The position numbers and the translations under genes were made by a program. Shown here piece by piece: positions 6,485 through 64,000 of a stretch of DNA of 64,000 nucleotides (positions are counted from its first letter, which is position 1; each line of letters starts with the position of its first letter). Below the pieces are notes generated by a model. That model had not been told where the DNA came from and did not search any database. It saw only the letters and a list, made by a program, of their open reading frames with translations. The DNA comes from Papaver somniferum. Its lineage: Eukaryota; Streptophyta; Magnoliopsida; Ranunculales; Papaveraceae. The stretch is from contig NC_039361.1 in assembly GCF_003573695.1 (NCBI RefSeq), forward strand, positions 40,841,393 to 40,905,392. Reading direction: 5' to 3'.

Positions 6485-6525
6485 GAACCCACGATTGGGA
6501 GATATCAAAACTAATTGGGGGATAT
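6485..6525 (+). repeat. MULE-1 left terminal inverted repeat
   Basis: About 41 bases, inverted match to 13108-13148; the shared core is GATATCAAAACTAA followed by TGGGGGATAT. It is preceded by the target duplication TATATTTGA. Confidence 0.9.
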
Positions 6526-6821
6526 GAATTACTTCCCCCAACTCAAAGCTGTCTGCTAAGGGGTGTTTTTTTGGGGGGAAATACTAAAACACCCTTAGAT
6601 TAATTAAAAATCCTTATGAAAAACTGTTATACCCTTTCTAATAAAACTTAAAATCAAAAACCAAATCAAAATATCCTCCATTTCCCTATCAGTTCCGGCA
6701 TTCATAGTTAGGGTTAGGTTTTGAAAAAAAAATTCTTCATCGTTCCCACCATCGTTGTTCATCGACGATTAATCGTTAATTCAAAAATTTCTTCGTCGAT
6801 TAACCTACCCGAATCATAACC

Positions 6822-7901
6822 ATGCCTCCACTAAAGAAACTAAATCCCCAATCGAAGTCGTCAAGAGCGATTGTTCAAGAAAAACAACAAAAGAGGACTG
6901 CTTTGATTGCCCAAGAGCAATCGGACGAAGAAAAAGAGTTATCGGAAGATCAACTACTCAAACACATGGCTTCAGTGAGAAGGTAAGTGATCTAGAAATG
7001 TTTAATTAGTGTTTCAATCGATTTGTAGCTAAGGGTTTAGGTCAAAATCGCAAAACCCTAACTGCAACTGTAGAGTTTCAGAAGTTCCGGCACTCAAATT
7101 CGGATAAATACCACGTCGGAAACAATTTCCGGCATTTAATTTAGGATGAAGACCGCACCGGTAGTGGGTTTCGGCGTTCAATTTAGGTTGAAGACCACGC
7201 CGGAACGTAGTTTCAGTATTCAATTTAGGTTGAACCCCAACTCTGAACTCGGTACCGGCGTTGATTCGGACTTTTTCGAGCACGCCGGTATTGACCTGCT
7301 AATCAACAGAAAACCCTAGAATTTCAATATTAGTACGTGCGTGCATTTTGGATTAGATTCCATGCCGACACTGTTGTTTTGGTATCCAGAAACTTCAGAA
7401 CTAGTACCGGCGTGCTCGACACGTTTATTTCAACGCTGAAATTGTGTCCCGGCATCCTCAAAATTTGTTATGTACTGCCAGTATTAGTTTCTGGCATATG
7501 AGTTTTTTTTTTGCTGCATTGCCGGTACTAGTATTTTAGTTTCCAGGAATTACTCAAAGTGTTCCGGCATCCTCGATATTTACTTGTGTATGCCGGAATC
7601 TGTTTCCTCATGCTACATGTTTCACTTTACCATGCCGGTTATTGTCCCGACGTTTACGAAACTTCTTATTTGTATGCCGGTAGTGTTGGTAGAAATGGAA
7701 GTTAGTTGTCTTATATTTATTTCGTGCTTCATTTGAAATAGATCTAAAGCAAAGCAAGCTAAAGAAAGTGAAGCTAAGAGGGGAAAAAGTAAAATTGTTG
7801 TCACTAAGAAAAGAAGGAAGGACGGTCTTGATACTCCTCAGTCCATTCCTCCTCGAGGGAACAACAAAAGCATTTGGGTGCTGGCACAAGAGGGGCTGTA
7901 A
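6822..7901 (+). CDS. Small basic accessory ORF of MULE-1 (two exons, 106 aa)
   Basis: Exon 1 is 6822-6982, from ATG to a consensus donor (AG then GTAAGT). Exon 2 is likely 7742-7901, after TTGAAATAG and in frame. The first exon is polar (Lys, Gln, Glu, Ser) and the second begins with a very basic run ending KKRRK, which could be a nuclear-localisation or DNA-binding patch. No known domain is recognised. The 3' end overlaps the antisense transposase gene. The leader before ATG (CGACGATTAATCG and similar) resembles the leader before the ORF at 62761, whose second exon also starts with a basic run, so the two are probably family members. Expression and the splice are inferred. Confidence 0.45.
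7076..7700. repeat. MULE-1 left array of CCGG motifs
   Basis: The intron of the accessory ORF holds many copies of a short motif in both orientations, such as TTCCGGCGTT, ATGCCGGAA, CACGCCGGAA and TGCCGGTA. Stretches resembling TTTAGGTTGAAGACCACG between motifs repeat in tandem near 7140-7260. The CCGG core is palindromic and a CG methylation target. The same motif fills 11960-12610 on the other side of the transposase. Confidence 0.8.
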
Positions 7902-9098
7902 CCACGTTTCCTTGGCCTCGGTGACCGTAACCACGTTTCCTTGGACGGACTGGATGAGATCTTTAAATCTTCCATGAGCGGACTCAGCTATACTAGTTGC
8001 TTCATTCCCGTAGTGTCTATACTGATTTGTCCATGCACGCACATATCTTTCCTTGAACTTAGCCAACACTTTATCCCGGCAGTACGAGACGACACTTGGA
8101 TACCCTTCGTTATATTTGGCACTAAACATGTTCAACCTATTTTCATACATATCCTCGGTAAGAGACCAATAAACTTGCTCCCAATCCTTTAGAAATCCCA
8201 ACCACCTTTTATGATTTTCATCGTGTTCTTTGTCCACTCGCTGTTTAATATTTCCTCTTTTATCTTCTTCTTGTTCGGGTGATAGTTTCTTCTTGAGAAC
8301 ATCTTCCTCTAGTTGAGCAATCATTCTTTTCTTACTCTCCGCCTTGGAGGGATCAAACAAATCATGACAATGTTTTGTGACATTTTGACCTATATGATAC
8401 GTACATAAGAAATTTTGTGCATCCGGGAAGACATCGGAAATTGCATTCATTAACCTGTCATCTTGATCGGTTATGAAGACCCTAGGAAGTTTATTTTCTG
8501 AGAACAATAGTTTCAGTTGTCGTAATTCCCAATGATAATTGTAATCCCTCTCGTTTTCCATTAAACACCAAGCCAATGTAAATGTAACCTTGTCCGATGT
8601 TTGCCCGACGATGTTGAACAACGACATGTTGTATTCGTTTGTCTTGTAGGTGCAATCCATCATAAGGACACTGCAACATGTATGAGCCAATTGTGAAAGC
8701 AAAGGATGCGCAATGAATATTTGAAGTGGCTTGTTTTACGGCCCTCTTTTAATGATACGCGTGTAGTTGTGATCCCAAGATATCTTCTCAAATTCTTGCA
8801 TAACGCTCCCTTCCCATTCCACCCTTCTAATGGTTGCTTGTGCGCTATAGATTGTACTTAGAGAAGAAACATTCATCTTATCCTTTTCCTTGAAGCTTCT
8901 GAGAATCACTCATGGTTTGATACATGCTTTGGTCATTCTCTTTACATCATCGAATTCATGAGGTTTTAGCTTCGCAACTAGGGAGTGACCCTCAAAATCT
9001 TTCGGATCCCGGTGGTTGTGACGGCCAAACCACACCGTACAATCCCATTCCTTTTCTTCCTTTTCTCCGTTTCTTAAATAGAATACAAGCTTAAAGGG

Positions 9099-11509
9099 TG
9101 TTAGAGCATAGCTCGATAGAACTCGCATGCGTTGCTATATCAAGCATGTTTGTCAATGTTAGTGATCAAAACTATAAAGTCTTGATTTCTAGCCTATTAG
9201 CTAAGTCTCGGACTAGGATAGGAAAAGTGTAGTTAAGCTCAAGGACTTCATGGCGATTCAACGACAACGACGAAGATCTGCACAAGGAACCGTGGAACTT
9301 CATCAACAAAAAGGTATGTGAAGACTTGAACTTATCTATCACTCAAAAGTCTATCTATTCTATCTCCTACTTCTTGTGAGACAAAAGTCGTATGTTATAT
9401 AGACTAGATCAAACACATTTGATATTTCGAGATGAGTATTCAATGCTTATCTTTTCTCGAAATTCATGTGTTGGTAAAGATTTTCGCTTTGATCAGGTTT
9501 ATCTTCATCTTTCAATCACTAAGTTGAGAATTACTCTGACGTGAAGACAATCTGTGAATAACGGTTGGGATAGTGCCCTCTGAGAAAGTATCAATGATTG
9601 AAATGAGAGTTAGATTACATAACCATGTATTCCTTGATCCGAAGTTCTTTGAACTTTGTTGAGCAATAGAAATCGGTAGGATTGTGGAATTGGCTTGCCA
9701 AGTCCGCGAACCCAGTCCGCAGACTTAGTCCGCGGACCGACGGAAGTTTTAGAACCGAAAATTTCTGCTGGGATTTCCATTAACTCGTTTGTTTGACCAA
9801 GTCCGCGAACTCATTCCACGAACCCAGTCCGCGAACTTGCGGAAGTTCTCGACCCGAGAATTTCTGCTGAGTTTTGGAAAACTCAAACCGATGCTTATCC
9901 GCGAACTTGTTTGTGTACATAAGAAGTTATGATCTAAAGATGTTCTCTGAACATAAACATTAAATTACTAAGGAATGTTTAATGTAAACCGTGGCTATAA
10001 TGTTCATTGAGACGATTCAATCGAATCGAAATCATCTTGAGTTCAATTGTGTCTTGTGTAGTTACATAAGATCTCATCGCAATTGAATGACTCTCTAACT
10101 AGTATGTTTGAATTCAAATGAACTAGTTATGATGAAAGAGGAACCATGTCAATATGAGAAGCTCATATGGTTGCCTTTTGGTCACTGTATTGAACCAACA
10201 TGAACGTACACGTTTGGGCCGGTTTTCACGAACCTGGAAAACGTCTACACACAAGTGTGTTTACAAGCTTTGTTTTTCGATCCAACGTTTGAGAAATATT
10301 AGTTGATTTAAATCAGGTTTCATCTAACAGTGAATAGAGTTTGCTTAATATCTAAGAAAAAACCCTGATTTGAAAGGCTATATATAGGAGACATCTATCT
10401 AGAGCAAAACTTAATCCCCACACATCTTTCTAGTGTGATACTAGTGCGCTCGCTAGAGTCGATCTCCATTAACCCTTGAGTTTCTTCTCTAAATTCGGGT
10501 TAGCGACTTAAAGACTTCATTGGGATTGTGAAGCCAGACCGATACTACTTTTATCGTAGTTGTGTGATCTGATCTTACTTTGCTATCGTACGAGTACAAT
10601 CGATTGATTGGCTTGAGAACGTTCGAGTTCTCCGATAGGTAAGATAAAGAAGTCACGAACGTTCTTCGTCTCAAAGTTCGTGAATCCTCGAAATTCTTTT
10701 TGTGTATTCAGGAATTGAGTATTGAGAGGTGATTGATTTATCTAGACTGTTCTTCAGGAATATAAGACCGGATTAATCAATTGGTTCCTGTGCTACCTTG
10801 ATCATATCAAAAAACGGAACAAAAACTAGGGTTTATCTGTGGGAGACAGATTTATCCTTTGATAGACTTTTTTGTGTGATACAGATTTGTTTATTATCAA
10901 AGCCTGCGATTTTGGGTCGTAGCAACTCTTTGTTGTGGGTGAGATCAGCAAAGGGAATCAAGTGCGTAGTATCCTGCTGGGATAAGAGGCGTAGGGGTGC
11001 AACTGTACCTTGTATCAGCGGGAGACTGATAGGGGTTCAACTATAGTCCAGTCCGAAGTTAATTGGTAGTAGGATAGTGTCTGTAGCGGCTTAATACAGT
11101 GTGTATCTAATCTGGACTAGGTCCTGAGATTTTTCTGCATTTGCGGTTTCCTCGTTAACAAAATTTCTGGTGTCTGTGTTATTTCTTTTCCGCATTATAT
11201 TTGTTTTTATAATTGAAATAACACAGGTTGTGCGTTAAGATCAACCTTTGGTTGTTGATTGATATTGATTGATCCTTGGACATTGGTCTTTGGTACCGTC
11301 AAATTTATCTCTCTTTGATAAAGACTCGCTATTGATTTTAGCTTGAGTAAAAATCAAATCGAGAGATTGAGATAATAACTCCTTGAGATACTTATTATCT
11401 AGATTGAGTCTGACTGTCTAGTTGATTCTCTAGTAAAGTTTTTCGGAGTTTGTCCATACAGATTGCTAATCGAAATATTGGGTGGATTTGTTAGACCCCC
11501 GCTTTTTCA
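9099..11509. mobile_element. Solo LTR (2.4 kb) inside MULE-1 transposase
   Basis: It begins TGTTAGAGCATAGCTCG and ends CCCCGCTTTTTCA, so it has TG...CA termini, and it is flanked by a perfect 5-bp duplication AAGGG (9094-9098 and 11510-11514). It holds no coding sequence, no internal region and no second LTR, so it is a solo LTR left by recombination between two LTRs. It contains several copies of AGTCCGCGAAC-like sequence near 9700-9900. The length and ends suggest a large Ty1/copia LTR (SIRE/Maximus-like), which is inference. It interrupts the FAR1 domain coding between the Pro-Phe and Lys-Leu codons. Confidence 0.85.
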
Positions 11510-11959
11510 AAGGGGCAATCATCCTTCCTCGTATTAGTCTTGTATACCCTATTAGTCTTCTTTGGATATACATAACCCTTTATCTTATGGCTATCCTTCT
11601 TGTATTTCCCACTTCGCTCGCAGACCATCTCAAAACGTATATCTGAACGTTCGGTATTCCTCACCAGCACACACATGTGTTTATGAGCCTTCTTTTTTGC
11701 CCAAGCAATTGCTTCCTCTCGAGATTGTTTTCCCTACATAAGGACAACAATGAAAACTTATAAGGTTGATTACAAGAAATCACCACATAAAGTTATAAAA
11801 ACTAGATGAAAAGTATTGTTTGGTAACATACCGGAGGCATTTTATAGTATTCAGACGTATCCGGACCAAGCGGTTTGGAGTTTTTTGGTTCAACGTACGT
11901 CACAATCTAAGGAATGAATGAAAAGAAAAATGAATTAGTTCAAAAAACATTTAAATTAT

Positions 11960-12610
11960 TATGCCGGGTACTAGTTCCGGCATGCTCGAAAATGTACCGG
12001 CGTTGTTGTTTAAGAATGTTCATGCCGGAATAGATGATACCGGCGTTCCCTAAAACCTTCAAACCAAGCCGGCACCTTATTCCGGCGTCGACATTAACAT
12101 AAAAACCACGCCGGAAATCAGTTCCGGCGTGCTCGATAATTCATGTGCCAAGCCGGTATTTATGTTCAAAATTCTATGTTTCCTGGATGTTTGTCCCTCA
12201 GTTCCGGCATTTACAAAAGTGAAAGTTTCAAAGCCGGAACCCTGTTCCGGCGTAGGCATTAACATATAAATTACGCCGGAAGTAAGTTCCGGCGCGCTCG
12301 ATAATTCACGTTCTACGCCGGTAATAATGTTCAAAATACTTAGACTCCTGGATGTTTTTCTTTCGGTTCCGGCATTGTAAAATGGAAGTGAACCATGCCG
12401 GAAGGAAGATCCCATAGAATATTTGGTGGTAGATAAAAAGTTTTACTGCGTACCGGCATGGATCTTTGGGTTGAACACCACGCCGGCACCTGTTTAAAAA
12501 TGGGGGATATGTACTTCCGGCATACACGTAGTATGAATACCACGCCGCAAATAGGTGTTCCGGCGTAGTATTCATACTACGTGTATACCGGAACCAAGCT
12601 TTTTCAGAGG
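11960..12610. repeat. MULE-1 right array of CCGG motifs
   Basis: This intron of the transposase gene carries more than 20 copies of GCCGG/CCGGC motifs in both orientations (for example AGTTCCGGCGTGCTCGATAA). Longer units near 12100-12180 and 12240-12320 repeat in tandem with a period of roughly 180 bases. It mirrors the array at 7076-7700. Confidence 0.8.
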
Positions 12611-13107
12611 AAAAATGGCGGTTCCAAAAAAAAATAAATCAAATTTTCGACCTCTTAGCAGCATTACCTGTGTGTTGGGGTTGCTTGTATGTTGAACATG
12701 TTTACTTTGTTGTGAAGGTTCTTCAAAAAACTCTTCATGCTCACAAAAATCATGATCCAAGGGTGTTGGTTCATCATAGAAGTCCAATTGTGAGTTGTTA
12801 TCATTAACCGAAGATTGAAGATATGATTCTTGTTGTAGTTGAGCTAAAGATTCAGCAGCTGCAATTCTCTCCTCACAATCATCTTCCATTTTACTCAAAA
12901 AAGTTTTTCCCTCAAATTCTACTCTCACCTTACTAACACAAAATCAAATAAAAATACACACTAATCTATCCCCCAAATACTTAGAAATTTATTAATTATT
13001 ATTAACCACTAAACGTGATTAGTGGGGGCTAGATTAGGAATTAAAAAAATAATTACATAAGGGGTGACCTAGCTTTAATATTTGGATCCCTATTTTGTCA
13101 CGTAGCT

Positions 13108-13148
13108 ATATCCCCCAGTTAGTTTTGATATCCCCCAAACGTGGGTTC
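13108..13148 (-). repeat. MULE-1 right terminal inverted repeat
   Basis: Inverse of 6485-6525 with three mismatches, followed by the second copy of the 9-bp duplication TATATTTGA at 13149-13157. Confidence 0.9.
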
Positions 13149-13325
13149 TATATTTGATAGTTTAAGGGAAAAGTATGTCTATAAACAAAGCGGATAGATA
13201 AAAAAAGACAGACCAAAATAAAAATTAGGACAGATAAAAAAAACAGAGGGAATATCTTTTTTAGTGCAAATATTTTATGGATATACAACTATTGTAAAAA
13301 AAATCACTATAACAATATTTTACCG

Positions 13326-14119: not shown

Positions 14120-14125
14120 GTGCTT

Positions 14126-16330: not shown

Positions 16331-16534
16331 AAATCCTGCCTGATAGCCATCTGGACCTGGTGCAGCCCAAGCATTGATGCTGAACATTGCTTCTTTAACT
16401 TCACCTGCAGTTGGTATTTGTGTTAACTTTTGATTATCTTCCTCTATAATACAAGGATTAATGAGATGAAGTATTTCTGCATCTATGTAGTGACTTGAAG
16501 AAGAATAGGTGTTGTTGAAATGATGTGTGAGTAA

Positions 16535-17720: not shown

Positions 17721-17748
17721 TTTTAAAAAATTCTAAATGTGCACAAGT

Positions 17749-18928: not shown

Positions 18929-22139
<3,211 letters not shown>

Positions 22140-26614: not shown

Positions 26615-26645
<31 letters not shown>

Positions 26646-27775: not shown

Positions 27776-27868
27776 GGGCAAAGAGGTAAAATGTCCCAAT
27801 TTCGATGGTCACCTTGTCAAAATGCCCCGGAGTTAAAAATAAAGTCAAAATGTCCCAATCCGTTATAT
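27776..27868 (+). repeat. MULE-2 left terminal inverted repeat
   Basis: About 93 bases, inverted match to the right end with a handful of mismatches, containing AATTTCGATGGTCACCTTG and repeated CAAAATG[T/C]CCC words. Confidence 0.93.
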
Positions 27869-27974
27869 TACTACTACAAGAGAGATATCTGGTCAAATCG
27901 GGGCATTTTGACTAGTCAACGCCCGAGTTGACTTCCGAAATTGCCCTTGCTAATTAGCAATGGTGAGTGATCAT

Positions 27975-28210
27975 ATTTCGGGACACGTGTTCGTATCCTA
28001 TGATATTCAGATCACGAAGAAAATTAACGGTGACAGATGAGGGGCTCGTACACGTGTCCTAACATCATTTGACCACGTGGATATTATATAATAATATAAT
28101 ACATCATTGATGACTGGGCATTTGATGCCACATGTCCCAATATATCACAGACAAGTGTCATTCTAGGACAAGTGTCATAGTAGTGCACGTGTGAACCCAT
28201 ACGTGTGTAC
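27975..28210. promoter_or_regulatory. CACGTG (G-box-like) cluster, left end of MULE-2
   Basis: GACACGTGTTC, TACACGTGTCC, CCACGTGG, GCCACATGTCC, two ACAAGTGTCAT, GCACGTGTG and TACGTGTG occur within 235 bases upstream of the transposase leader. ACACGTGT is palindromic, and CACGTG is the core bound by plant bZIP and bHLH factors. The right end has a matching cluster, so the sites could serve the promoters, the transposition machinery or both. Confidence 0.6.
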
Positions 28211-28215
28211 AAAGA

Positions 28216-29023
28216 TCTTATCTTCTCTTCATCGAGTTTCATCCACAGAAAACCTGAAAGAAAAAGTTATCCAGAGAGAGAGAGACGGATTGAGAGATGG
28301 AGTGAAAGAGGAAGAACTAAACCCTAAATATACAAGATCGAGAGAGATACAGATCGAAAAATAGACAGATTGAGAGAAATAAATCTCGAGAGAGACAAAT
28401 CGAGATAGTTTGCTGAGTTTTAATGGTGTGAAGAACTGAACAGAGAATATTACTGAAAAAGGTAAATCATCTAAATTCTTTATGGTTTTTTGGCTTATTT
28501 TGATCGTTATTTAGACTCAGTATATAGTTTCTCCTTCATTCGTTGTTCTGAATCTATGTAAAATTAGCGTTCACAAAATTGGGAATTTCATTTTCTGAAA
28601 TTAGGGTTTTTTTTTCTTCGTTAAACGGGTTTATAACTGATTAGGGTTATATTTTTCAATCGTTCTCAATCTATGTTTATAGAATTAGGGTTTATAAAAT
28701 TGGGAATGTAATATTCTGAGTTTAGGGTTTATACCAAAAATGGGGAAATTTCATTTTCTGATATTAGGGCTTGGGTATACCAAAATTCACAATTAGGGTT
28801 TAATAAAAAGTTATTAGCCTGTTAAAAAATCAGCACAATTGAACTTTAGTATCTTCATAACACACTGTGTCTTCAGTTCAGGTAAATGTATCAAAAATAA
28901 AGTCCCTAAAATCATTACTGGGAATCATGGTGTTGTGTATCTCTTTTAATCGTGATAATTTGAAGTTGCTGCTAGTTTGATCATGATTATTGATCTGTTT
29001 TTCTTTTTTTTCATTGTTTCAGA
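28216..29023 (+). other. Leader and leader intron of the MULE-2 transposase gene
   Basis: A GA-rich stretch (AGAGAGAGAGACGG and similar, 28270-28400) resembles a plant 5' UTR. A donor follows AAAAAG at 28461 (GTAAATC), and an acceptor TTGTTTCAG stands one base before the ATG at 29024. Confidence 0.5.
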
Positions 29024-32000: not shown

Positions 32001-32405
32001 ATTTTTATTGAATAGGGGAATTATATTATCTACTTTTGTACTTTTACTTTACTGTATTATTATTATTTTCATTATTCTCTAGATCTGTGCATTTAAAGTA
32101 TACTAACCCTAACTTTATTTTGTTTGCAGACTGATATCAACATTATACATCCACACAGATTGAGAGATAAGGGAAGACCTTGTGTCAAAAGAAAGAAGTT
32201 TTGGGCTGAGAAGAACAAGCAGCGCAAAAGAGTAATCAAGTGTAGTGTTTGTAAAGGTATTGATCATAACATCCTTACCTGTCAAGGTCCTCCAGTTGGG
32301 TCTAACCCAAGAAGAAAGGAGTTAGAATGGAGTGTTCTGTTAATGGGGATGAGTTTTGTATTACTGCTGCACCAACAAAGAAGATGAGGAAGGCTTTGTC
32401 TGCAC

Positions 32406-37213: not shown

Positions 37214-37820
37214 CTAAATTTGCACTTTATCTTTAAACTGTGCACAAATTTGATCTTCATAATTATCAAATTGCTTCTGTTTTCCCACATAGATTGCATC
37301 AGAAACCCATTGGAAATCTTCACACTTCTTGCATTTTAGGTACCCAATACCATAATTCCATGATGTTTGAGCTATGTTTAACATCCTCACCTTAGTTGAA
37401 TGGCATTTGGGGTTGTTACAAGGAGTCTGTGACCAAGGACAATCAGCAAATCTGTGATCACCAGCACAAGCTTCACACCCTCCCTTGTACTGAGGTGCCA
37501 TAGATTTAATTGCATCAGTAGCTTCAACAAACCATTCAAAATACGAACACATAGGATTAGAACAAAAAAAAAATTTCTTCCCTGAATTAACACCATCTTT
37601 AACCTTTAGAAGCTTTCGAATTCCATTACAAGGAACTAGTTTACACCGGGAGTAAATCCAAGGACAATCCATGGATTCATGATATTTTTCGCTACACATT
37701 TCACATTCCTGCATTTTGATTAACTATAGTTAAAACCATTACTATACTACAAATCCTTATATATTCTTTTTTTTAACAAAAAATTGAACTTACCATTTTA
37801 ATGCTGGAGCTAGCCGCCAT
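37214..37820 (-). CDS. GRF zinc-finger accessory protein of MULE-2 (173 aa)
   Basis: Exon 1 (37820-37794) encodes MAASSSIKM and ends at a GTAAGT donor; exon 2 (37708-37214) joins in phase. The protein has CCHC-like knuckles (CEMCSEKYHESMDCPW and CEACAGDHRFADCPW) each followed by a GRF-type zinc-finger segment (CSNPMCSYFEWF and CKKCEDFQWV). GRF fingers bind single-stranded DNA in host repair proteins; here the gene lies inside MULE-2, antisense and 3' to the transposase, so it is probably an element gene, as MuDR carries mudrB. The frame is intact while the transposase is broken. Its role is not known to me. Confidence 0.7.
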
Positions 37821-37939
37821 TAGGGTTGATGAAAAAACATGGTGAGAAATGTTGTTGATGGTCACTATATGTATAGTTGACTATGCCTCAAAAAACGACC
37901 GTTATAACAACGGTCGGGATCTCTCACCGTCCGTTCAAG

Positions 37940-38125
37940 AATCCCGGCCACGTGTAAGCAATCTAACCGTTTAGGATACTGTGGAAATTTTCGATTTTTT
38001 TAAGTGCAAAGTAGACAAATTGCATTACACGTGCGTGTCACGTATGCGGCAAATACGTTGAATCTAGACATGAAGGATATATAAGTCATTTTCCCACACG
38101 TGCGGGTACACATGTGTGCATTATT
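37940..38125. promoter_or_regulatory. CACGTG (G-box-like) cluster, right end of MULE-2
   Basis: GCCACGTGTAAG, TTACACGTGCGTGTCACG, CCACACGTGCGGG and ACACATGTGTGC lie upstream of the antisense GRF zinc-finger gene, mirroring the cluster at the left end. Confidence 0.6.
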
Positions 38126-38152
38126 GACTCTTTAACTCTGCCTGACGGGAAA

Positions 38153-38245
38153 TATAACGGATTGGGGCATTTTGACTTTATTTTTAACGTCCGGGGCATT
38201 TTGACAAGGTGACCATCGAAATTGGGGCATTTTGCCTCTTTGCCC
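38153..38245 (-). repeat. MULE-2 right terminal inverted repeat
   Basis: Inverse of 27776-27868. It is followed by the second copy of the 9-bp duplication, ATCTGAAGA. Confidence 0.93.
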
Positions 38246-41740: not shown

Positions 41741-43920
41741 CATGGAGACCCATTCTCCCAGACTTTTCTACTATGAACACCACGCTCAGAAAAACAGAGG
41801 CGCACACCCATTTTCTGGAAGAAAATTATTCTCAAACCCACAATTTCAAAAATTATGTTTTCGTCTGTTTTAATGGTCGAATTACACTTCTTCTTCAGTT
41901 CTTTTTCCTGTTCCTCCAACTGTGAAGTAATCGTTAAAATCTCTGGTGCAGGTTCAGGATTTGTCTCACAAGACCTTTATCTTCATGGGTTCTTTAGTGT
42001 TTCGATCAAATTATCAGCAGATTATACAGCCGGGGTTGTCGTTGCCTTCGATGAAGAAATCAAGTTAGAACTGGAAGATGGTGATGCTGTTAATGTTTGT
42101 GATTAATCTCTTCTCTGTTGCTGCATCTAGGGTTTGAAATTGATGCTGCTACAGATCGAGAAAAAGAGAAGAGTTGCTCAGAAATTGAAGCTCGGATTCT
42201 GAATCTGCTTCTGAGATTCAGATGGAAATGGTGGTGAATTTTAGTTCAAAGCGACGATTTGAGAAACAGATGATTAATAGAAAAATGGTGGTTCAGATGA
42301 ATTTCAAGGGTTAGAAGATAATCTGCTGCTGTTGTGAATTGGGGGTTTTAAGTGAAGAAATATGAAACTGGGTTTAGTGTTTGAGCAGTTGAGGAAGAGA
42401 ATAAACTGAGATGCTCATGTCACTGGATTCATCATTGTGTTGCTGCTGGTGATGACTTGTAACCGATAGTGCTGTCTCAATATCTCCAATAGTTGGACCT
42501 GAGTAGAAGCTGTGTTCTGGTGGTTGTAGTTCAATTTGCAGGTCAATTTGGGTATCGAAATGGTGGCTGCTGTTTGGTGAAGATGTCAGTGTAATTGAGA
42601 TTTGTTCATGAGCAGAAGCAATGGGTTTTTGAGAGCACTTCGATTGCAACAAGAAAAAGGAGATGTGCCTGTGCATTGGTGGTTTTGCAGCCGAGTTTGG
42701 AGCTGAACTGGGTTCGATTTGAGCTGATGTTTCAGCAGTAAAATGTTGCTTCTATACAACTGAATGATGAACTGTTTACAGGGATTCGAATTGGACTAGT
42801 GTTGACAGCGGTGTGGCTCAAGTTTGTAAGGGTTTGGTCAAGTTTTTCTCAGGCGAAGGAGCTGGTGTTGCTGCTACGTCGGAAGTAGAGCTGTTGAATA
42901 AAGGGCAGTTCAGGCAAGCAATGAATGAGGCTGGAATGACCAAGTCTGGGACTTATTGATGGTAGTATAAGTAAAGATGATGAAATAAAGGGATAGGTGT
43001 TGTTGGTTGGAAAGCTACAGATGTATTGGTGTTGTTGTTGTCCATAATGGTCGAATAATCTGTTATGCAACTCTAAAAACAGTTGCATAACCTGTTATGC
43101 ATCTACAAAATTTGTTGCATAACGTGTTATGCAGTCCGAAAAATGATTGCATAACACGTTATACAACAACATTTTTGTTAGTATGAACCAACAAAAAATA
43201 AGGTTGCATAACTTGTCATGCACCTATAATAATATCTACATAACATGTTATGCAGTCGTGAAAATGGATGCATAACCTGTTATGCATCCGAAAATATGAC
43301 TGCATAATGCATTATGCATCGAGAAAATTGTCACACAATCTTTTATGCATCGAGAAAATAGATGCATAACATGATATGCATCCGTAAATATGGATATATA
43401 CTGCATTATGCATCAATTTTTTATACTCAAGAAGGGTGCGAAAACAATGGGTACATGACTTGTTATAGATGCATAACTTTGCTATGCAGTCGAGAAAATG
43501 GTTGCATAATTCGTTATGCGTCTGCATAATGCGTTGTGCATCCTTTTTGGTGGCTGCATAATGGTTATGTATCAAGTTTTCAAAAAATTTGCCTAAAACG
43601 ATGATCACCTCCGATTTTTTCATGAAAAACAAAAATTTGATATTGTTGTTTGTAGTCGTTGCGTAGCTCTCTTTAAAAGATTTCCAACCATATAAAATTT
43701 GTAAATTTCTAAGGTGCGGATTTTTAGATATGTTATGTCCAAGTTGAGTTGCCAATTATACCCCTGATGCATAACTCAGTCATGCAGATGCATAATTCGT
43801 TATGCAGAAGTTTTTAATAATTTCATATAAATATGGGTGTCACGGAAATAATTATGGGTGTCACAGTACCCAAAATTAATTGTGGGCCTGAGATTGAGAA
43901 TATTTTTTTTTTGGGTCTCC
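41741..43920. mobile_element. Putative non-autonomous element with palindrome array (ends uncertain)
   Basis: The left side (GGAGACCCA, then ATTCTCAA and CCCACAATT near 41741-41850) and the inverse of the right side (GGGAGACCCA, ATTCTCAA, CCCACAATT near 43880-43920) share the same words in the same order, like degraded inverted repeats. No target duplication was found. The interior has gene-like but non-coding sequence (42110-42850) and then the TGCATAAC array. Boundaries and class are inference. Confidence 0.35.
43055..43810. repeat. Tandem array of TGCATAAC..GTTATGCA palindromes
   Basis: About 18 units spaced roughly 38-48 bases apart. Each unit is a near-perfect palindrome TGCATAACNYGTTATGCA, followed by a spacer resembling TCCGAAAAATGAT. 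Units drift (GCATAATGCATTATGC and similar), but the two half-sites keep their spacing. No coding sequence is associated. Confidence 0.85.
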
Positions 43921-45031
43921 CCCTAATTTCCCCTACGGAAAATTTGTTGTTTGGTCCTAGGTCCAAAATATTAGTTATAGCAGGGTCCAACCGGAGAATA
44001 ATCTTAGCTTAGGGTCCATATTTGTTTAAAATATAGAAAAGACATATTTAACCCCTGGTGTCGAGCGTGTCAAATAAATAAGAAAATGATCATTTAACAA
44101 GACCAAGACGTAAAACAAAAACATAAAAAGAAAAAGAAATAACATAAACTTTTGGACAACTAGATTCGCACTTTCCTCCTCCAAGTTACAAAATTTACCA
44201 TTGACATTAGTTACTGGAATCCTCTTTTTTCAAGAATCCTCACAGTAGGCAGTAAATCTGGACATGCCTCCCATAACATAAGACAAACCTTAGTGGAATA
44301 TGCTTAGTGCCACGAGTTTCCAGCTTTCCCTACCACCCTTCCAGCTTTCCCTACCACCCAACGAGCCACTACTAGCCGAAACACTCCCTACTGCTCCACT
44401 TCCGTTGAACCTTATCCCCCAAAGCACCAACAGCCTCATCATAAGAAATGTCGAAAATGTCAGATCCAATTCAACCTGTCCTCTTCGAGTCTACACCAAC
44501 ACTGTCAGCAGCGACCTCATCATTATGAGGCACCACTCAAAATCCAGGGAATTGAATGAGGCACAATTGTTAGTACAACATATATGTACTGTTTAATGAC
44601 TACTCTGCAAAGTAGCTTGAGAGATTCCACTGTAGTGTTAGTGGCTTCATGGGCTTCACGAGTAGTGTATTCGCAATGTAAATAATCTGTGTTTAATTGG
44701 GGCACATAATATGTATTATAAAATTGGTGCAACAAATATGTACTCAAAACAAGAGCATATTCTGTCTGCATTAGAAAATGATGACAATATGTTGGAATCT
44801 TGCAATCAGCATGCTAGTTAGCTATCAACAGTGGTGCCGCAAATTAAATTACCATGGTCTACAAGGGGAAACACACCCTTGATCCCATTTTCGATTTCCA
44901 GTTGCATAAAATGCTAAAAAAAATTAAGAATATGTCACCATGCTTAACTACCCTCAGTAAAAACCTATGCGTTACACCTTCATGCAAATTTACATCTAGT
45001 TTGTAACTAATCACTGATTGTTAATCATTAC

Positions 45032-45197
45032 CTGACCATCGGAACCAACGAAAAAAATACTTTATTATGAATAGGAGAAGATGCCAAAGCATTGACATTA
45101 CCCTTGTGGCAAAGAATGTGTCTGGAAAGGAATTTTTTGTTCACCGTCCCAAAACTGTACACTACCAGTACTATCTCGGCTAACCACGGTACTGTAC
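45032..45197 (-). pseudogene. Captured exon of a UTP4/Cirhin-like WD40 protein
   Basis: On the minus strand an exon bounded by a good acceptor (TTCTTCTAG) and donor (CAG then GTAATG) translates to STVVSRDSTGSVQFWD, then in other frames CHKGNVNALASSPIHNKVFF and a VGSDGQ-like end. This matches one WD40 unit of UTP4 (Cirhin), an rRNA-processing factor of the small-subunit processome. The frame is broken twice, once at the SLPQG/CHKG overlap and once in a run of T. No other UTP4 exon is recognisable nearby, so it is a gene fragment and not a gene. Confidence 0.6.
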
Positions 45198-45599
45198 CTA
45201 GAAGAAAAAAGACAATGATTAACGACTGCAAATCGAAACAAGACAAAATCAGTACATGATTGAATATTAAACAACTTCTGCCGAAGCTTTTTGTTCCTGC
45301 AATACAAACGAAATGGCAATATTAAACAGTCGAGATTTGGTACACAAGTTAAATCAGTCTTATTGGTAACCACACAAGTTATTGAAGTCTAACACTCAAT
45401 GCAAAGTAAAACTTTGGGATTCATCTAGTGCAACTGAAAGATCCGTAGTGCGATTACAAATCCACAACGCCTAACACTAGCTACCCAAATAGCAAAAAAC
45501 GAAATGCGAAATCCGACAAAATTAGTAATTAAGAGTGCAACCTCAGTCAGATTGTCTAAACTATTTTTTTTGGCTCCTCCAATATATTTGATAAATAAC

Positions 45600-48130
45600 A
45601 CATAACAACATTTATACAGTGATTTTTTCTTGAGTGTGGCCGGTGGCGATTATACACTGAGAAGTATCACAGTACATCATTTATACACTTATTTTCTCAG
45701 GAGTGCAGCGCTTATACACTGTGATTTTCTATTAAATTATGGGCCAAAGGAGGTAATCTCCGTAGCTCACCAAATACGACAATTTTCAATTATGTACTCT
45801 ATAGTTATACTGCAGAGAGACCAGAGGTGCTTACACCCATGTAATTCACAATTTTTATTTTTATGAATACGAAAATTGTATTCGGAATTTCTTGTTTGCA
45901 AGGTGGCTTGGCAAGCTACTTTCTCAATTATTACATGCATATGCACCATCGGCTAATGAACATGTTATCGAGAACTTAAAGAAATGCTTCTAAAAAGAGT
46001 ATTTAGTTATGTGCAAGTGTAATCAAAATAAGATCAAGTGGCAGATACAATAGTAACAAATGGAAATTGATTTTTAGGAGTACGTCATTTATGTACTATG
46101 AAAAATTCTTATTCCCCGATTCATAGAATGCCAGCAAATCTACAAAATTTCATAGTAACATTATTGGTATGTTTACACAACATAACCTATGCGTAATGCA
46201 AAGAAAGGAAATTCTTCTTGTCACAACGGTCAGTACATATTAGCTACACTCATACTTTCATTGGATTTTAAACATCATAACAGGGATTGCATTCTAAAAT
46301 ACAACTAATTCCATCTAAAACCTTTGCATAATGCTAAGATAACAATTCTTCCTTTCACAACTGTGTCAGTACATATTTGCTACACTCATATTTCAGTGGA
46401 TTTTAAGTATCATAACAGGGATAACATTTGAAAAGATAACTAATTACATCTAACACCTATGCATAATGCGGCACAAGCACAAATCAGGCTAATGTAAATT
46501 TCATTTTGGAAAATGGTGCACTTGTCTTCACAATAGAGAGATGAGTCTGTAGTAAATCATGGTGTACTGTAATTTACACAATAAGAGAGAATAGACTTAC
46601 ATATCTTGTAGATGTTTTCTTTAGATCTCTTGTTTGTTCATCAAATGCTTGTAAAGTCTAGTAGCACCACCACCTTTTGAGTACAAAATGAACAACACCA
46701 TCAACACCATTAATGAAACTGAATAGAAAAATTTTAAGTGAAGTCGTGGCGAAGATCTCAAAGATCTAATTTAACAAAACCAAAAATTACCAAAAATCAA
46801 AAAATAAACTCAATATAATCCTCTGAATATGAAATCAAAAACAACAATATTAGAAGCACTACTGTCAGCTAAATCATTGACAAGGACCACTACTCAGTCA
46901 TTGGTTTAAACTACTCCTGACAGTAATGAAATCTGTACATGTGTATGAAGGCTTCGCCACATATAAAGTTAGGAAGTACGAAGTACATCGTTTATGCAAC
47001 GATTTTCTCTTGAGTGTTGAGTTTTCAGCAGTGCAACATATATATACATTGTGTATTTTTAGCAGTGCAGTGTATATACACTGTGACTATCGAATGTAAG
47101 CTAAACGAGGTTTAGGATTGTGGAAACATTGGCATTAACATATGTACAAGGTTAAACTAGTACTCCATAACATTAATCTTTCACGAAATAACTACCATTC
47201 TAATCAAATTTCTAAATATTGTAATTATGGGCGAACCAGTGTATGAAAGCTTGTCCTATACAAGTTTAGTAAGCATTGAGCTGCTGCTGCTGCACTTTCA
47301 TATCCATGTAGAAGGCATTTATGCAGGAGCTACAAAGACTATCTCTCCATGCCTGTAAAAAAAGAAAAAAATGCAACATCAGAAACATCTAAAATCTAAA
47401 AATTCAAGTACAGTTGTTATGCATTGTTACAAAAATCCAGTACAGCTGCTATGTAGTGTATGTTCTACTCTAGTCTCAAACATACTGCGTTGGGTAGTAG
47501 TGTGAAGACGGGTATGCAGTAAGAAGAAAAATTACTTCAATAACAAATCCAGTATAGTTGTTATGCACTGCTCAAAAATACAGTACAGTTGTTATGTATT
47601 GTATATGTTTTATTCTATAATTTTGAACATACTGCATTGGGTAGTAGTGTGGAGATTACCAGCCTCTGATTTTTCAGTAAACCAAATATACTCACATCAA
47701 AAATTAACTCGCATGATGGGTACTATACTCGCATAAAAAATTAACAACAATTTCAGAGCCAAAAGCACAAACATATACAACCAACAGAAACATAGGAATA
47801 TATCAGAACCGAAACACTTTCAATTCAGTATTTCATATGTACTGCTAGATCATATGAATTAACTGAGTATAACTATGAACACAACAGAATTACAAGCAAT
47901 TATTTTCAGTATTCCATATATGTACTTCTGATTCGTAAACTAAAAATCAACTGCATGTCAAAAATAACTTATAAACCTATGAATCTAACAGAATAAAAAC
48001 AACTCTATTCCAGTATTGGATACAAGTACTTCAGGATCAAACAAAAAAAGTAATAAAACAATGAATATAACAAAATTAAACCAGTTTTTTTCTTCAGTAT
48101 ACCGTTTATGTACTGCAGAATCAAATAATC
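45600..48130. repeat. Dispersed array of AGTAY...RTACT motifs
   Basis: At least 13 imperfect palindromes resemble CAGTATACCGTTTATGTACTG (for example near 45660, 46230, 46372, 46977, 47405, 47440, 47550, 47826, 47905, 48011, 48095), plus TTATACACTGTG forms near 45610-45720 and 47070. Spacing is irregular, 40-400 bases. Confidence 0.6.
46186..46470. repeat. Tandem duplication, about 143-bp unit, two copies
   Basis: ACCTATGCGTAATGC ... CAGTACATATTAGCTACACT ... CATAACAGGGATT repeats as ACCTTTGCATAATGC ... CAGTACATATTTGCTACACT ... CATAACAGGGATA, and a third unit begins at about 46455. Confidence 0.7.
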
Positions 48131-48850
48131 TGTAACAACAAACAATCATGATTTTAACAAAAAAAAAAAGAAACAAAAAACAAAATTATGGCTATATTAC
48201 TGAATAATCTAAACAATAACAATTTTTGTTCTCAAATCAACACATCAATTCTTCCTATAACGTTTCAGTGGCCAAAGTGAGATCCATTAATCCACTACCA
48301 AACGTAACAGATCATTACATCGAACCAATTCACGGATCAGCAATCAAACATCCAAAATTAGATCTATTTTACTAGACTGTAACTAGTAGATCGAATCCAA
48401 CAAATCACTCAAATTTCAGTAAAAATCAATTAATTGATGATAAAAAGAACTCGAACAACAAAGAAGAAGATACTGAAAATATCAAAACCCTAAGAAAACA
48501 ATAAAAAGAAGACTAAATTAAGAATCTCACCATTTTTTAGGGTGTTAGAAATGATCAATCGAAGGAGATACAGAGGAATAAATCTAGGGAACAAAATCTT
48601 GCGCGGAGAAACTGATTAATCGATCAAAGACCTCGTAAGAATCTTCATCGCAAGTCGCCAGAGCTCTTCAAATCGAGAGAGACAATAGAGAAAATGAAGA
48701 ATGATGAATTGTGAATTGGTCTGTAAAGTAGAAAGGTTATTTCTGATATTTTTAAATTACACATAAATGTTCCCGCACGTGTACAGGACCTGAGATTAAA
48801 AAGTTGGGTCCATTTTACTGTTTTCTTTTTATTATGGACCTCTGGTTACT

Positions 48851-49184
48851 GGACTTTAATGGATGGACATGCCACTAATCAATACTAGAATATTGATACC
48901 TATAGGTAATTCCTACATACCATTTTGCACTGAGAATCTTCACAACTTCGCAGCCGTAAGACTTAGCCCCGCCTTCACAGTGGTCATGGTCTGTGAAGCC
49001 TCCGTAGGACTCAGTTTTAAAGCAAGTGGATGTCAAGTTGTGAACCCACCTACGAAATGACAACTGTTTTAAAGCATGTAGATGTGACTGTATGGCCCTA
49101 CCTATTTGCACAACAAACTGGTATTAATCAGACTCTCTCAATTATTGTATAGGTTTCTTCGTTTGCAGGAGTTTTTAAATTCCT
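48851..49184. other. Short intergenic segment
   Basis: Non-coding flank between two transposon-like blocks. A duplicated phrase (AAGCA.GT.GATGT, near 49021 and 49073) is visible. No gene recognised. Confidence 0.4.
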
Positions 49185-50647
49185 GCCATTTTTTGGGGCG
49201 ACCCTAAAAAAATTAGGGTCAATTTTTTTATTTTCAACCCATAGTCAAGGTTAAGGAATGTCCAAAAGATAGAAGTATACCTTAACGCCCTTCCGTAATC
49301 GGGAGTTATTTCGTGTCCGATTGTTAATATTAAATCGGTATTTAAGTAACACAAAGATACTACCGATTGATATAAATTTGTGCTAAATGCGCATTTGGGG
49401 CTACTATTAATCGGAAGTTAACGATAAATTCATTTAGTACCGATTATAGGCTCAATCAAAATTCAAAAGAAGAAAAGGATTTTTGTAAAATTTCATTTTG
49501 GGGCTACTCCGTATTCGGTAGTTATATAAACTATTTTGACTACCGAATATGGTTGAATATTTGCAAAGAGAGTCATGTACAATCGGAAGTCAGGATGTTG
49601 CCTCATTTACTACCGATTACAGGCTCAACCAAAATTCAAAAAATAGATGATTTTTGCAAAATCACATTTTGGGGCAACTCTATGTTCGGTAGTTATGTGA
49701 ACTATCTTGACTGCCGATTATGGTAGGATTTCGGTAAAGAGATATACTGTATAATCGGAAGTCGGGATACCTTCATTTACTACCGATTATAGGCTCGACC
49801 AAAATTAAAAAAATTGAGGATTTTTGCAAAATCACATTTTGGGGCAACTCTATATTCGACAGTTATATGAACTATCTTGACTGCCGATTATGGTAGGATT
49901 TCGGCAAAGAGATCTATTGTATAATCGGAAGTCAGGATAACTTCATTTACTAACGATTATAGGCTCAACCAAAATTCAAAAAATTGAGGATTTTTGCAAA
50001 ATCACATTTTGGGGCAACTCTATATTCGGTAGTTATATAAACTACCTTGACTGCCGATTATAGTAGGATATTTGCAAAGAGGGCCACTGCATAATCGGAA
50101 GTCAGAATACCTTCATTTACTACCGATTATAGGCTCAACCAAAATTCAAAAAATTGAGGATTTTTGCAAAAACACATTTTGGGGGAACTCTATATTCGAT
50201 AGTTATATAAACTACCATGACTGCCGATTATAGTAGGATATTTGCAAAGAGAGACAATGTATAATCGGAAGTCGGGAAACCTTCATTTACTACCGATTAT
50301 AGGCTCAACCAAAATTCAAAAAATTGAGATTTTTTTCAAAATCTTATTTTGGGGCTACTCTATATTCGGGAGTTAAATAAACTAAATTCACTATGGATTA
50401 TGGTAGCATTTTAGCCAAAGGTCTTCTTTAATCGGGGGTCAAGATAAAATTTTTTACTACCGATTATAGGATAATCAAAATTCAAAAAATAGAGGAATTT
50501 ATTTTGGGAATACTTTATAATCGGAAGTTATATGCACTAGATTTACTCACGATTGTGGATTAACTTCCCGATTGTGAAGTTATCTACCAATTGGAAAGGG
50601 TAGTTTGACCCCTAATTTTTTCGGGATCGCCCCTAAAACTGTCGGGC
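49185..50647. mobile_element. Non-autonomous MULE-like element of 170-bp tandem repeats
   Basis: The ends are inverted: GGGGCGACCCTAAAAAAATT on the left and the inverse of a GGGGCGATCCCGAAAAAATT-type sequence on the right, with outermost GCC/GGC. Flanks TTAAATTCCT (49175-49184) and TTAAATTTCT (50648-50657) match at 9 of 10 bases, a probable 9-10 bp target duplication. The interior is almost entirely about seven copies of a roughly 170-base unit. No coding. It lies 41 bases before the start codon of the P450 pseudogene. Confidence 0.7.
49437..50470. repeat. About seven tandem 170-bp units with CCGATT/AATCGG motifs
   Basis: CTACCGATTATAGGCTCAAC recurs with small changes at about 49437, 49609, 49780, 49950, 50119, 50289 and 50456. 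Each unit holds four related words, CTACCGATTATA, TATTCGGTAGTT, TGCCGATTATGG and ATAATCGGAAGT, so CCGATT occurs in both orientations about every 40 bases. Confidence 0.85.
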
Positions 50648-58228: not shown

Positions 58229-58235
58229 GTAGGGA

Positions 58236-61939: not shown

Positions 61940-62403
61940 TCTCGGTGGTATACTGGTAATATATATATTTTCGTGTGTTTATTTATGTGCTAGTTTGATC
62001 TCCCTTGTATAAAAACGTTGCAGTTGTGATTTATGTGCGCGGTTAGGCAGGCAGGCAAGTTGTTATTCAAGAGTTTTCAGTAATTGTCAGATGAGAACTG
62101 AATTTAAGGTCTGAATGACTGTAATTGAGGACCTATTATAGTTGTGGAATATAAGGATAAATTAGTGGAAGACAGAAGGAAATTCAAATGTATTGATGTT
62201 ATTCAGATATTAGATTCAACTCATAGTTGTAAGCCGTAGAATTCAGTTATTGGTGTGTGAACTTTGCTTTAAACAAAAATGTTCGATTCAATTTTCAGAT
62301 CTTCCTTGGTTATGTTGATAAACTTGCAGCATGATAAGTATCTACTTGAACTAAGATAAAATGAATATGAGAAATAAAGGCAACACCTAGTTATACAATC
62401 TTT
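61940..62403. other. 3' flank of the DUF641 gene
   Basis: Contains the 3' UTR and non-coding DNA before the next element. Nothing else recognised. Confidence 0.5.
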
Positions 62404-62760
62404 GAACCCTATTATTGGGGCTGTAGGGGGCTAGCAGGGCTTAAATTACTAATTGGAACCAAAATGTTATAGGGGGAGACCAAATTTATGTAAAAATTCA
62501 AAAATATCCTCAATCATTTTAATTTATTACCCTTTTACCCTTCCATTAACTAACTAATCTAATAAAGAAAAACGGAAAAATCATTAAAAGAAAAAAAAGT
62601 GAAAGCATTAAAACAAAATCGTCCTCCCCTTCTCCTTTATTTCTTCTTCTCATATTCCCCCCTTTCTTTTATTTTTCTTCTTCTTCCCTTCTTCGTTTTT
62701 CAACGATTAATCGTCGATTCAAAAAAAAATCGTCATCGATTAAATTCATTGTATAAAACC

Positions 62761-64000
62761 ATGAAACCTAAGGAAAATTTAGGTCAATCTTCGTCGAATC
62801 AACCTTTTCCTGAAGCAGAGAAACCAAGTTCATCAAATGAAGCAGAAACTGAAGATCAAGAAGAAGTGAATGAAGGAGATGGACCGGCCGCCGAGACTCC
62901 TGATATGACAACAATAAGGTATGAATTGAAAAACCCACTCTTTATTTAAGCGTTTTATTGATTATTCAGTTGGTTTCGAAAATTTTAGGTCTGGAAAAAT
63001 AGTCTCTGAAAATGCTTATTGCTGGGAGTTCTTGTATTCCCAGCCGTAAATAGGTTTCACGGTTGGGATCTATTGTTTTCCTAGCCATGTATATGTCTTA
63101 CGGTTAAGATATCTGAGAACTCCCAGCTGTATGTAAGTGTTACAGTTGGGATATCTAAGAACTCCCAGCCGTAAAATAGTCGATGCGTACGAGATTGAGA
63201 AATCCTATCTGCAACAAGTTCTTTAACCTAGCCGTATATTATCCTGCGTTCGAAATTATTTTTCAGTGGTAGTGTTTACGTCTAGGTCTTTTCTATCGGT
63301 AATTCTTTTTCCTAACCGTAAAGGTCAGTAACCTAGCCGATTTTATATAACGGCTAGGTTTTTCCTAGCCATATGTGAATATTAGACCAGCTGTTTCTTT
63401 CATGTGTATGTTTTCCAATCCGTAATATGAGTAACTAAGCCGCAAATTATGTTTCCTAGACGTTATTTGTTTTACGTCTAGGCCGATTACTAAATATCCC
63501 AACCGTAATTTTTGTTTGCGTCTGGGACAGTCCATTTTTCCTAGCCGTATTCATTGTCATGACTTGGTTATGTCTAGATTTCCCAGCCGTTTTTACTTAT
63601 CTACTTTTGGTTTTTGGTCTTGTTTGTCTTTGAACAAAGCAAAAGAAAAGAAGAAGAAAAGATCACAAGAAGTAACACCTTGTAGTCATCCGACTCCGCA
63701 ACCTCGTCACACAAAACCATTGGGTGCAAACGCAAGGAATGCAAGTGGAGTTTTGACTTGTGGAGAAAGTGAAGGTGGAGGAAATGGAGTTAGAGATGCA
63801 ACTGCTTTAGGTAGTCAAGTTGTAGTTTCCACGGGTGGAGGAAGTGAAGGTGTACGTGCTGTTACTGGAGGAACTGAAGTTGGAGTTGCTGGAGGAAGTG
63901 AAGGTGTACTTGTTACTGGAGAAACTGAAGTTGGAGTTGCTGGAGGAAGTGAAGGTGTACTTGTTATTGGAAGAACTGAAGTTGGAGTTGCTGGAGGAAG
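62761..64000 (+). CDS. Accessory ORF of the 62.4-kb element, partial, with glycine-rich repeats
   Basis: Exon 1 (62761-62919) encodes MKPKENLGQSSSNQPFPEAE and an acidic stretch, ending at a donor (AG then GTATGA). After an intron, an open frame from about 63640 encodes a basic run (KEKKKKRSQEV), a Pro/His segment, then a glycine-rich repeat of a 17-residue unit GGSEGVLVTGETEVGVA, about three copies, continuing past the window. The acceptor that fits the phase best is at 63660-63661, but this is not certain. Basic second exon, leader and position match the MULE-1 accessory ORF. No known domain recognised. Incomplete at its 3' end. Confidence 0.4.
63000..63600. repeat. Array of CAGCCGTAA motifs in an intron
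   Basis: CCCAGCCGTAA, CCTAGCCGTAT and their inverses (TTACGGTTGGG, ACGGCTAGG) occur about 20 times in both orientations in 600 bases, often preceded by TTTC or ACTC. The array occupies the intron of the accessory ORF, the same place as the CCGG array in MULE-1. Confidence 0.8.
63832..64000 (+). repeat. 51-bp coding minisatellite
   Basis: About three units of 51 bases beginning GGAGGAAGTGAAGGTGTA, each encoding GGSEGVLVTGETEVGVA with small changes, cut by the window end. Confidence 0.85.

Follow-up and report, generated by a model that had tools for sequence, protein, structure and literature searches.

VANC-type anti-silencing has been described from the VANDAL elements of Arabidopsis (Hosaka et al., 2017, PMC5735166; EMBO Rep 2023, PMC10398659). 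In the portions of the first paper available to us, VANC proteins target a short motif that is repeated in tandem in introns and other non-coding DNA and differs between related VANDALs (YAGTATTAY for VANC21, AGTTGTCC/AGTTGTAC for VANC6), and the readers themselves have variable, repeat-associated regions (PMC5735166). Here we describe arrays of comparable form in a 64,000-nucleotide stretch of Papaver somniferum DNA (contig NC_039361.1, positions 40,841,393 to 40,905,392; hereafter the window). They lie in two elements, MULE-1 (E1) and the 62.4-kb element (E6), which may be diverged members of one MULE lineage, each with an array of its own word in the presumed first intron of a gene that we call gene B. 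An earlier note on this DNA had listed six separate elements, each with its own array, and had proposed that a VANDAL-like system might serve them all. Among the titles and abstract openings covered, none was recognised as dealing with arrays of this kind in Papaver MULEs, which is no proof of absence. The parts of E1 and E6 are as follows.

6485..13148, no strand: E1, with terminal inverted repeat (TIR) GAACCCACGNTTGGGNGATATCAAAACTAA, perfect 9-bp target duplication TATATTTGA (9/9, 0 mismatches) and PF10551
6822..6982, plus strand: E1 gene B exon 1 (MPPLKKLN...ASVR), with a GT donor after it; leader and exon 1 homologous to E6
7085..7682, no strand: E1 left array (E1L) within the inferred gene B intron 1 (6983-7741), with AYGCCGGWA in either orientation and a 42-bp register
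7742..7901, plus strand: a truncated exon 2 of E1 gene B (SKAKQAKESEAKRGKS...), its splice read by eye
7990..9134, minus strand: E1 gene A, MULE transposase region (PF10551, PF21056), its open reading frame (ORF) interrupted by frameshifts and by an insertion nested in it
9112..11500, no strand: the insertion nested in E1 gene A, with approximate borders, a reading-frame break
11491..11733, minus strand: E1 gene A exon with a possibly FAR1-like N-terminal segment that has no fitting Pfam match
11975..12595, no strand: E1 right array (E1R), again of AYGCCGGWA in a 42-bp register, lying between exon 1 of gene A and the exon at 11491-11733
12668..12889, minus strand: E1 gene A exon 1 (MEDDCEERIAAAESLAQ...NTQ); a similar exon opens the Papaver somniferum protein P0002
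62761..62918, plus strand: E6 gene B exon 1 (MKPKENLGQSSSN...MTTIR), matched by P0003 and P0006
63039..63590, no strand: E6 array, CCYAGCCGTA, in the inferred gene B intron 1, with a register of about 10.5 bp
63636..64000, plus strand: start of E6 gene B exon 2, an KAKEKKKKRSQEVTP segment after a candidate splice acceptor, followed by Gly-rich coding repeats of 51 bp; truncated where the window ends

The transposase domain of E1 (PF10551, 3.2e-24), together with TIR ends that align at 43/46 and a target duplication within the 8-11 bp of the superfamily, identifies it as a MULE. Its word, AYGCCGGWA, occurs exactly 25 times in the window where 0.51 are expected, and none of 100 shuffles held as many (here and below, k-mer counts per block were judged against 100 dinucleotide shuffles). 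All 25 sites are in E1, 24 divided between the two arrays and the last in the 5´ leader, and the word occurs in introns of both convergent genes. The arrays are nearly symmetric, the left one lying about 600-1200 bp in from its end of the element and the right one 555-1175 bp in from the other, and the first 500 bp at each end hold one exact site in all (6693). E1R contains a 165-bp tandem duplication. We rejected the idea that E1L and E1R are mutual copies: a first alignment (288/423) looked good, but once the word is masked they score 26, against a mean of 21.6 and a maximum of 29 for shuffled spacers, so that the spacers are unrelated.

E6 extends past the window end, and only its leader and gene B exons are in view. 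CCTAGCCGTA (up to 1 mismatch) occurs 9 times in the 64 kb against 0.70 expected (0/100 shuffles), and all nine copies are within the E6 array. The leader and exon 1 of gene B align between E1 and E6 with a z of 12.4 over shuffles (349/520 in a wider alignment), the first 110 bases of E6 giving no E1 alignment above shuffles. In both elements the array occupies a homologous position, beginning 263 (E1) and 278 bases (E6) after the ATG in the presumed intron 1. The words do not cross: AYGCCGGWA (up to 1 mismatch) is found 15 and 22 times in the two E1 introns and 0 times in E6, CCYAGCCGTA (up to 2 mismatches) 21 times in E6 and 0 and 0 times in the E1 introns, and neither refined word has a match outside its own element in the 64 kb. 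They have GCCG in common. We place the array in gene B intron 1 because the family proteins P0003 (..MIAIR-ANEKRKKRSQEV..), P0004 (..MTTIR-GKENKKKRSQEV..) and P0006 (..MTVIR-KEEKRKRISVEV..) are continuous across that point of E6. The strongest part of the case is this comparison of E1 with E6, in which a homologous leader and first exon are followed by next-intron arrays of non-crossing words.

By analogy, these arrays may be called VANDAL/VANC-like in form. As in VANDAL21 and VANDAL6, to the extent covered by the text of PMC5735166 and PMC10398659 available to us, short words (8-9 bp in VANDAL) recur in tandem within MULE introns and other non-coding parts of these elements; related elements differ in word, which here concerns one pair only, E1 and E6; and the second protein has variable, repeat-bearing regions, E6 gene B carrying a 51-bp Gly-rich coding tandem repeat at 63836-64000, up to the window end. 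Unlike in VANDAL, the E1 transposase matches a cheA-like MULE protein and the words of E1 and E6 are rich in GC and include CG; helical phasing, described below, was not met in the portions of the two VANC papers at hand. A second ORF antisense to the transposase is also a feature of mudrB/PMD-type MULEs with an extra ORF (PMC6446971, in its available part), from which gene B differs in having no Pfam match.

The arrays also emerge when no word is named. We scanned 181 windows of 700 bp for 7-mers against 60 order-2 resamples per window, and 13 exceeded all of their resamples, about three of which could arise by chance: two at the left of E1, three at its right, three in the 41.7-43.9 kb block (E3), three in the 49.2-50.6 kb element (E5), and one each in E6 and at the left end of a hAT element nested in MULE-2 (E2). 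Five additional windows equalled their resample maximum, and no window in the 44-48.8 kb block (E4), the genic stretches or the ends of E2 itself exceeded all resamples for any word. The refined words were picked on the same data, which makes the own-element counts post hoc and the scan and the zero cross-counts the fairer tests. The earlier claim of six blocks with arrays of their own is partly confirmed: motif arrays stand out in MULE-1 and the 41.7-43.9, 49.2-50.6 and 62.4 kb blocks, four of the six named, and the words of these four exceed shuffles, whereas MULE-2 (its 6-mer below the shuffle maximum) and the 44-48.8 kb block (its fixed dyad unenriched) are enriched only for words named in advance. 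That motifs keep to non-coding parts is true of the exact matches in MULE-1 save the site at 7674, which is within the antisense tail of an ORF extending beyond the transposase domain; two one-mismatch GCCGGAA matches are inside the transposase region (8074, 8736).

Word cores outlast the spacers in E1 and E3, and weakly in E6. In site alignments the cores carry 1.74 bits per column in E1 (37 sites), 1.47 in E6 (20 sites) and 1.53 in E3 (31 sites), compared with 0.22, 0.14 and 0.29 in the flanks, a contrast inflated by the choice of sites by their core. An unbiased measure is base identity one repeat length away. At lag 42 this is 73/120 (0.61) for core and 447/1198 (0.37) for spacer in E1L, and 100/214 (0.47) and 310/1044 (0.30) in E1R; at lag 32 in E3 it is 156/234 (0.67) and 340/824 (0.41).

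The sites also hold a register of about 10.5 bp, clearest in E6. Phasing was assessed with same-orientation GCCGGAA/AGCCGTA sites (up to 1 mismatch) against 200 random placements, and the best periods were 10.5 in E1L (coherence 0.92), 20.9 in E1R (0.85) and 10.4 in E6 (0.85), with 0/200 permutations each, although the period grid behind the permutation maxima was less fine than the one used for the data. When pairs near multiples of 42 bp were removed, E6 kept a coherence of 0.78 (14 pairs, 0/1000). E3, with its 32-bp period, has a 10.5-bp coherence of 0.46 (0/200) but a best period of 6.4, and phasing in E4 was not significant in the same permutation test.

What best explains these observations as a whole, we suggest, with about an even chance of being right, is element-specific intronic arrays bound by an element-encoded protein, with E1 and E6 belonging to one MULE lineage. 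The two would be diverged members of a lineage with two convergent genes, gene A for the transposase, visible only in E1, and gene B for a small basic Gly-repeat protein, and each would bear intronic arrays of its own 9-10-bp word. The arrays probably originated by tandem duplication of a unit of about 42 bp, with later drift of the spacers while the words and the helical register were kept. Likeliest would be an element-encoded DNA-binding protein (A or B) whose copies line up along the words on a single face of the helix and control the chromatin or transcription of the element itself, as VANC does on VANDAL elements; at the split of the lineage, word and reader would have changed together. 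The arrays, their specificity and homologous position, the better-kept cores (E1, E3) and the phasing (clearest in E6) are seen in the sequence; the existence of this binder, its encoding by the element and a regulatory or anti-silencing outcome are what we infer. A unit of about 42 bp duplicated in tandem, with words that outlast the spacers, are used twice in one element and give way to another word in its sister, is the pattern to be expected of a binding array for a diverging reader.

A more far-reaching version, which we regard as doubtful, is that VANDAL-like, sequence-specific self-regulation or anti-silencing arose in a separate Ranunculales MULE lineage, with helically phased intronic words recognised by gene B or the transposase as a new reader, which co-diverged with them between sister families. 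If it is true, a second sister pair with the same array logic would suggest that motif arrays with a dedicated reader are a recurring form of self-marking in DNA transposons, and E1 and E6 would be a natural pair for word/reader co-evolution. The helical phasing, if real, would mean that the reader acts as a polymer on a single DNA face, a concrete clue to its assembly.

Several results weigh against a bound, element-specific array. E1 is broken, so its own proteins exert no present selection on its arrays, and no Pfam domain above cut-off was found in gene B (window pieces and P0003-P0009). The E1/E6 alignment of exon 2 has a z of 3.0 with a shuffle maximum equal to the observed score, and that of the intron a z of 3.4 with a shuffle maximum above it. 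P0003 and P0004 could derive from intron-less copies and not from spliced transcripts. The core advantage of E6 at lag 42 is weak, 29/66 (0.44) against 359/1112 (0.32) in the spacer for AGCCGT and 26/75 (0.35) against 362/1103 (0.33) for AGCCG. Off the lattice, coherence is 0.27 in E1R (16 pairs, 3/1000) and 0.66 in E1L from 3 pairs (1/1000), and with exact GCCGG the best period of E1L is 14.1 and E1R at 10.5 reaches 0.45-0.53. Because 14.1 and 10.5 both divide 42, E1 alone cannot separate a helical register from the 42-bp lattice, and its register may be nothing beyond that lattice. The margin of the scan is one count for both E1-left windows, the E6 window and the hAT window. Finally, the analysis rests on a single copy per element, on by-eye splice sites and on protein relatives without genomic context.

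Ac/Ds-type hAT elements carry end arrays. It is possible, if rather unlikely, that the E1 and E6 words are likewise transposition signals, through which the transposase or an accessory protein pairs the element ends, as with the subterminal repeats of Ac/Ds and En/Spm. The near symmetry of the E1 arrays relative to the two ends would fit, and the hAT at 32406-36568 shows the classical arrangement, with its copies no more than about 130 bp from either end. In the part of PMC2613891 available, soybean CACTA subterminal motifs vary by subfamily and are thought to co-diverge with a TNPA-like binder, and the repeats of En/Spm, Tgm and other CACTA elements resemble ours in being element-specific direct and inverted motifs that vary by subfamily. 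Those repeats, however, start at the TIRs, whereas the E1 arrays are about 555-1200 bp inside, are intronic and belong to a MULE. Motifs within a few hundred bp of both TIRs, the Ac/Spm pattern, are found in the nested hAT and not in E1; E1 and E6 are not of the hAT form, their arrays starting about 550-600 bp inside and filling introns, with the site at 6693 the only exact one in the first 500 bp of either E1 end.

Somewhat less probable is that the arrays are decayed, functionless intron minisatellites in which the word is the best-preserved part of a 42-bp repeat. Tandem duplication is evident in E1R (165 bp) and E5 (170-bp repeats), the E1L spacers keep an identity of 0.37 at lag 42 compared with 0.27-0.31 at lags 21, 30, 37 and 84, and the core advantage of E6 is weak. 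The excess of cores over spacers at the repeat lag in E1L, E1R and E3 argues otherwise, as do the use of one word in two introns with unrelated spacers and the persistence of the E6 helical phase off the 42-bp lattice.

CACTA-type pairing and decay aside, the words could be sites for host factors; the G-box CACGTG, the clearest candidate, is a well-known plant bHLH/bZIP site. That the arrays are host transcription-factor sites serving as intronic or promoter enhancers seems improbable: CACGTG clusters occur in both ends of MULE-2, and the form CACGCCGG of some E1 sites has CACGC in common with CACGCGC, the FHY3/FAR1 site (PMC6000157, in its available part), but the E1 and E6 words differ despite homologous position and leader, which favours a changing element-specific reader, and in refined form are without matches outside their own elements in the 64 kb.

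The joined query of E1 gene A matched two proteins, with the best E-value for P0001, a cheA-like MULE protein from Rhododendron (31% identity over 86%); P0002, from Papaver somniferum, matched at 65% identity over 14% of the query, which corresponds to the region of gene A exon 1. The N-terminus of P0002 is like that exon and is joined to other sequence, and its WYEYHAGRV segment resembles, by eye, a reading of E1R, which hints at a related array there. Gene B has seven relatives among the matches listed, five from Papaver somniferum and two from 'lgn' contigs, scored only among the 7990 candidates sharing most words; the named database matches listed are from Papaver somniferum in all cases. 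The ideas that gene B encodes a TNPA-like (Transposase_24) or plant-mobile-domain (PMD) protein find no support in Pfam matches. P0009 has a possibly PMD-like tail, a resemblance that Pfam did not confirm; PF10536 (PMD) had no match in the window pieces of gene B or in P0003-P0009, whose complete C-termini are possibly outside view. Host PMD proteins and their DOWN motif (PMC7156037, in the part available) stay a lead only. As expected for a plant, a comparison of the gene B proteins with viral contigs gave 65 pattern stretches and 0 confirmed, and the E1 TIR had 0 matches in bacterial and archaeal genomes.

The insertion nested in gene A (9112-11500) held no motif exceeding the shuffle maximum in k-mer counts over 100 shuffles. 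By eye, AAAGGG-like repeats are present on its flanks, and a AGTCCGCG cluster near 9700-9840 has 4 copies, equal to the shuffle maximum.

The CpG observed/expected ratio is 1.30 in E1L, 1.40 in E1R and 1.16 in E6, against 0.76, 0.76 and 0.58 in their own flanks. Masking the word (up to 1 mismatch) brings it to 0.90, 0.71 and 0.68, and an exact mask to 1.12 in E1L and 0.82 in E1R; the excess is thus mostly from the word itself, the spacers of E1R and E6 coming close to the level of their flanks while the E1L spacers stay slightly higher. We therefore set aside array-wide hypomethylation, the chiefly word-borne excess being evidence neither for nor against methylation.

The remaining blocks of the window are listed here.

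27776..38245, no strand: MULE-2 (E2), 64-nt TIRs (92%), perfect 9-bp target duplication ATCTGAAGA
27983..28207, no strand: E2 left-end CACGTG (G-box) cluster, weak
32406..36568, plus strand: a hAT (DUF659) inside E2, with an 8-bp target duplication (GTCTGCAC) and arrays of AATTTCGG at its two ends
37214..37723, minus strand: E2 GRF zinc-finger ORF (PF06839, 2e-06)
37948..38118, no strand: E2 right-end CACGTG cluster, weak
43052..43806, no strand: E3 array, palindrome TGCATAACNNGTTATGCA, 32-bp period
44269..48863, no strand: E4, a probable insertion with a perfect 10-bp duplication TGGACATGCC, almost no TIR and a weak AGTACAT motif
49182..50646, no strand: E5, a short TIR element with an 8-bp duplication with 1 mismatch

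As to the earlier view of six separate elements, TIRs and perfect 9-bp duplications bear it out for MULE-1 and MULE-2, E5 has TIRs and a duplication with one mismatch, E4 has its perfect 10-bp duplication with almost no TIR, and for E3 (41.7-43.9 kb) a border scan found no element borders. A VANDAL-like reading suits MULE-1 and the 62.4-kb element, which combine homologous position, different words, tandem ancestry, conserved cores and register. The proposal of one such system for all six fails on the hAT end arrays, the 170-bp repeat of E5, the few G-boxes of MULE-2 and the near-background counts of E4.

E2 encodes MuDR DNA-binding (24.3 bits, slightly below the cut-off of 25), MULE and SWIM domains besides the GRF-finger ORF. 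CACGTG occurs 12 times in the window against 4.7 expected, 7 of the 12 in the two E2 ends, and ACACGTG, named in advance, 6 times in those ends against 0.16 expected (0/100 shuffles). These 7 copies are fewer than the largest 6-mer count among the shuffles (10), and the G-boxes of E2, perhaps an end array, are too few to support the claim, as are the AGTAC words of E4. The nested hAT carries a seventh array, absent from the earlier list and of the classical end-array type: AATTTCGG has 7 exact copies, all within about 130 bp of the hAT ends, in arrays at 32416-32537 and 36465-36558.

E3 and E5 are repeat arrays, and E4 is near background. TGCATAACNNGTTATGCA (up to 3 mismatches) occurs 12 times in the 64 kb against 0.35 expected (0/100 shuffles), 12/12 at 43052-43806. 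E5 contains 6.4 tandem copies of a 170-bp unit bearing CCGATTA in both orientations, and because the repeat carries the motif, ATAATCGG/CCGATTAT reaches 14 copies, where 5 is the maximum of any 8-mer in 100 shuffles. The borders of E4 were equalled by 1 of 60 random control boxes. In E4, AGTACATA has 9 copies against a shuffle maximum of 7, and CAGTAYAT, named in advance, 7 against 0.52 expected (0/100 shuffles). The idea of E4 as a dyad array was rejected, with phasing not significant and no excess when the spacer is fixed at 11: AGTAY-N11-RTACT occurs 7 times in the window against 7.0 expected, with none in E4. With the spacer relaxed to 6-16 the window holds 3 dyads, all of them inside E4, a count with no shuffle control. 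E4 also contains a frameshifted WD40-like fragment (45028-45388), possibly a captured piece of a host gene; joined, it is weakly like Gemin5 (E 0.015) and UTP4 (E 0.088-0.42), and its longer ORF by itself had no PDB match.

Elsewhere in the window, positions 1-6000 hold long direct repeats of 93-99% identity, with copies 2.05 and 2.45 kb apart and 10 N at about 1604-1613, which look like a recent duplication inside a repeat. On the minus strand, 13595-17562 contains LINE-like remnants of very low CpG, with an endonuclease (PF03372) at 16888-17562 and, by eye, reverse transcriptase and RNase H-like ORFs.

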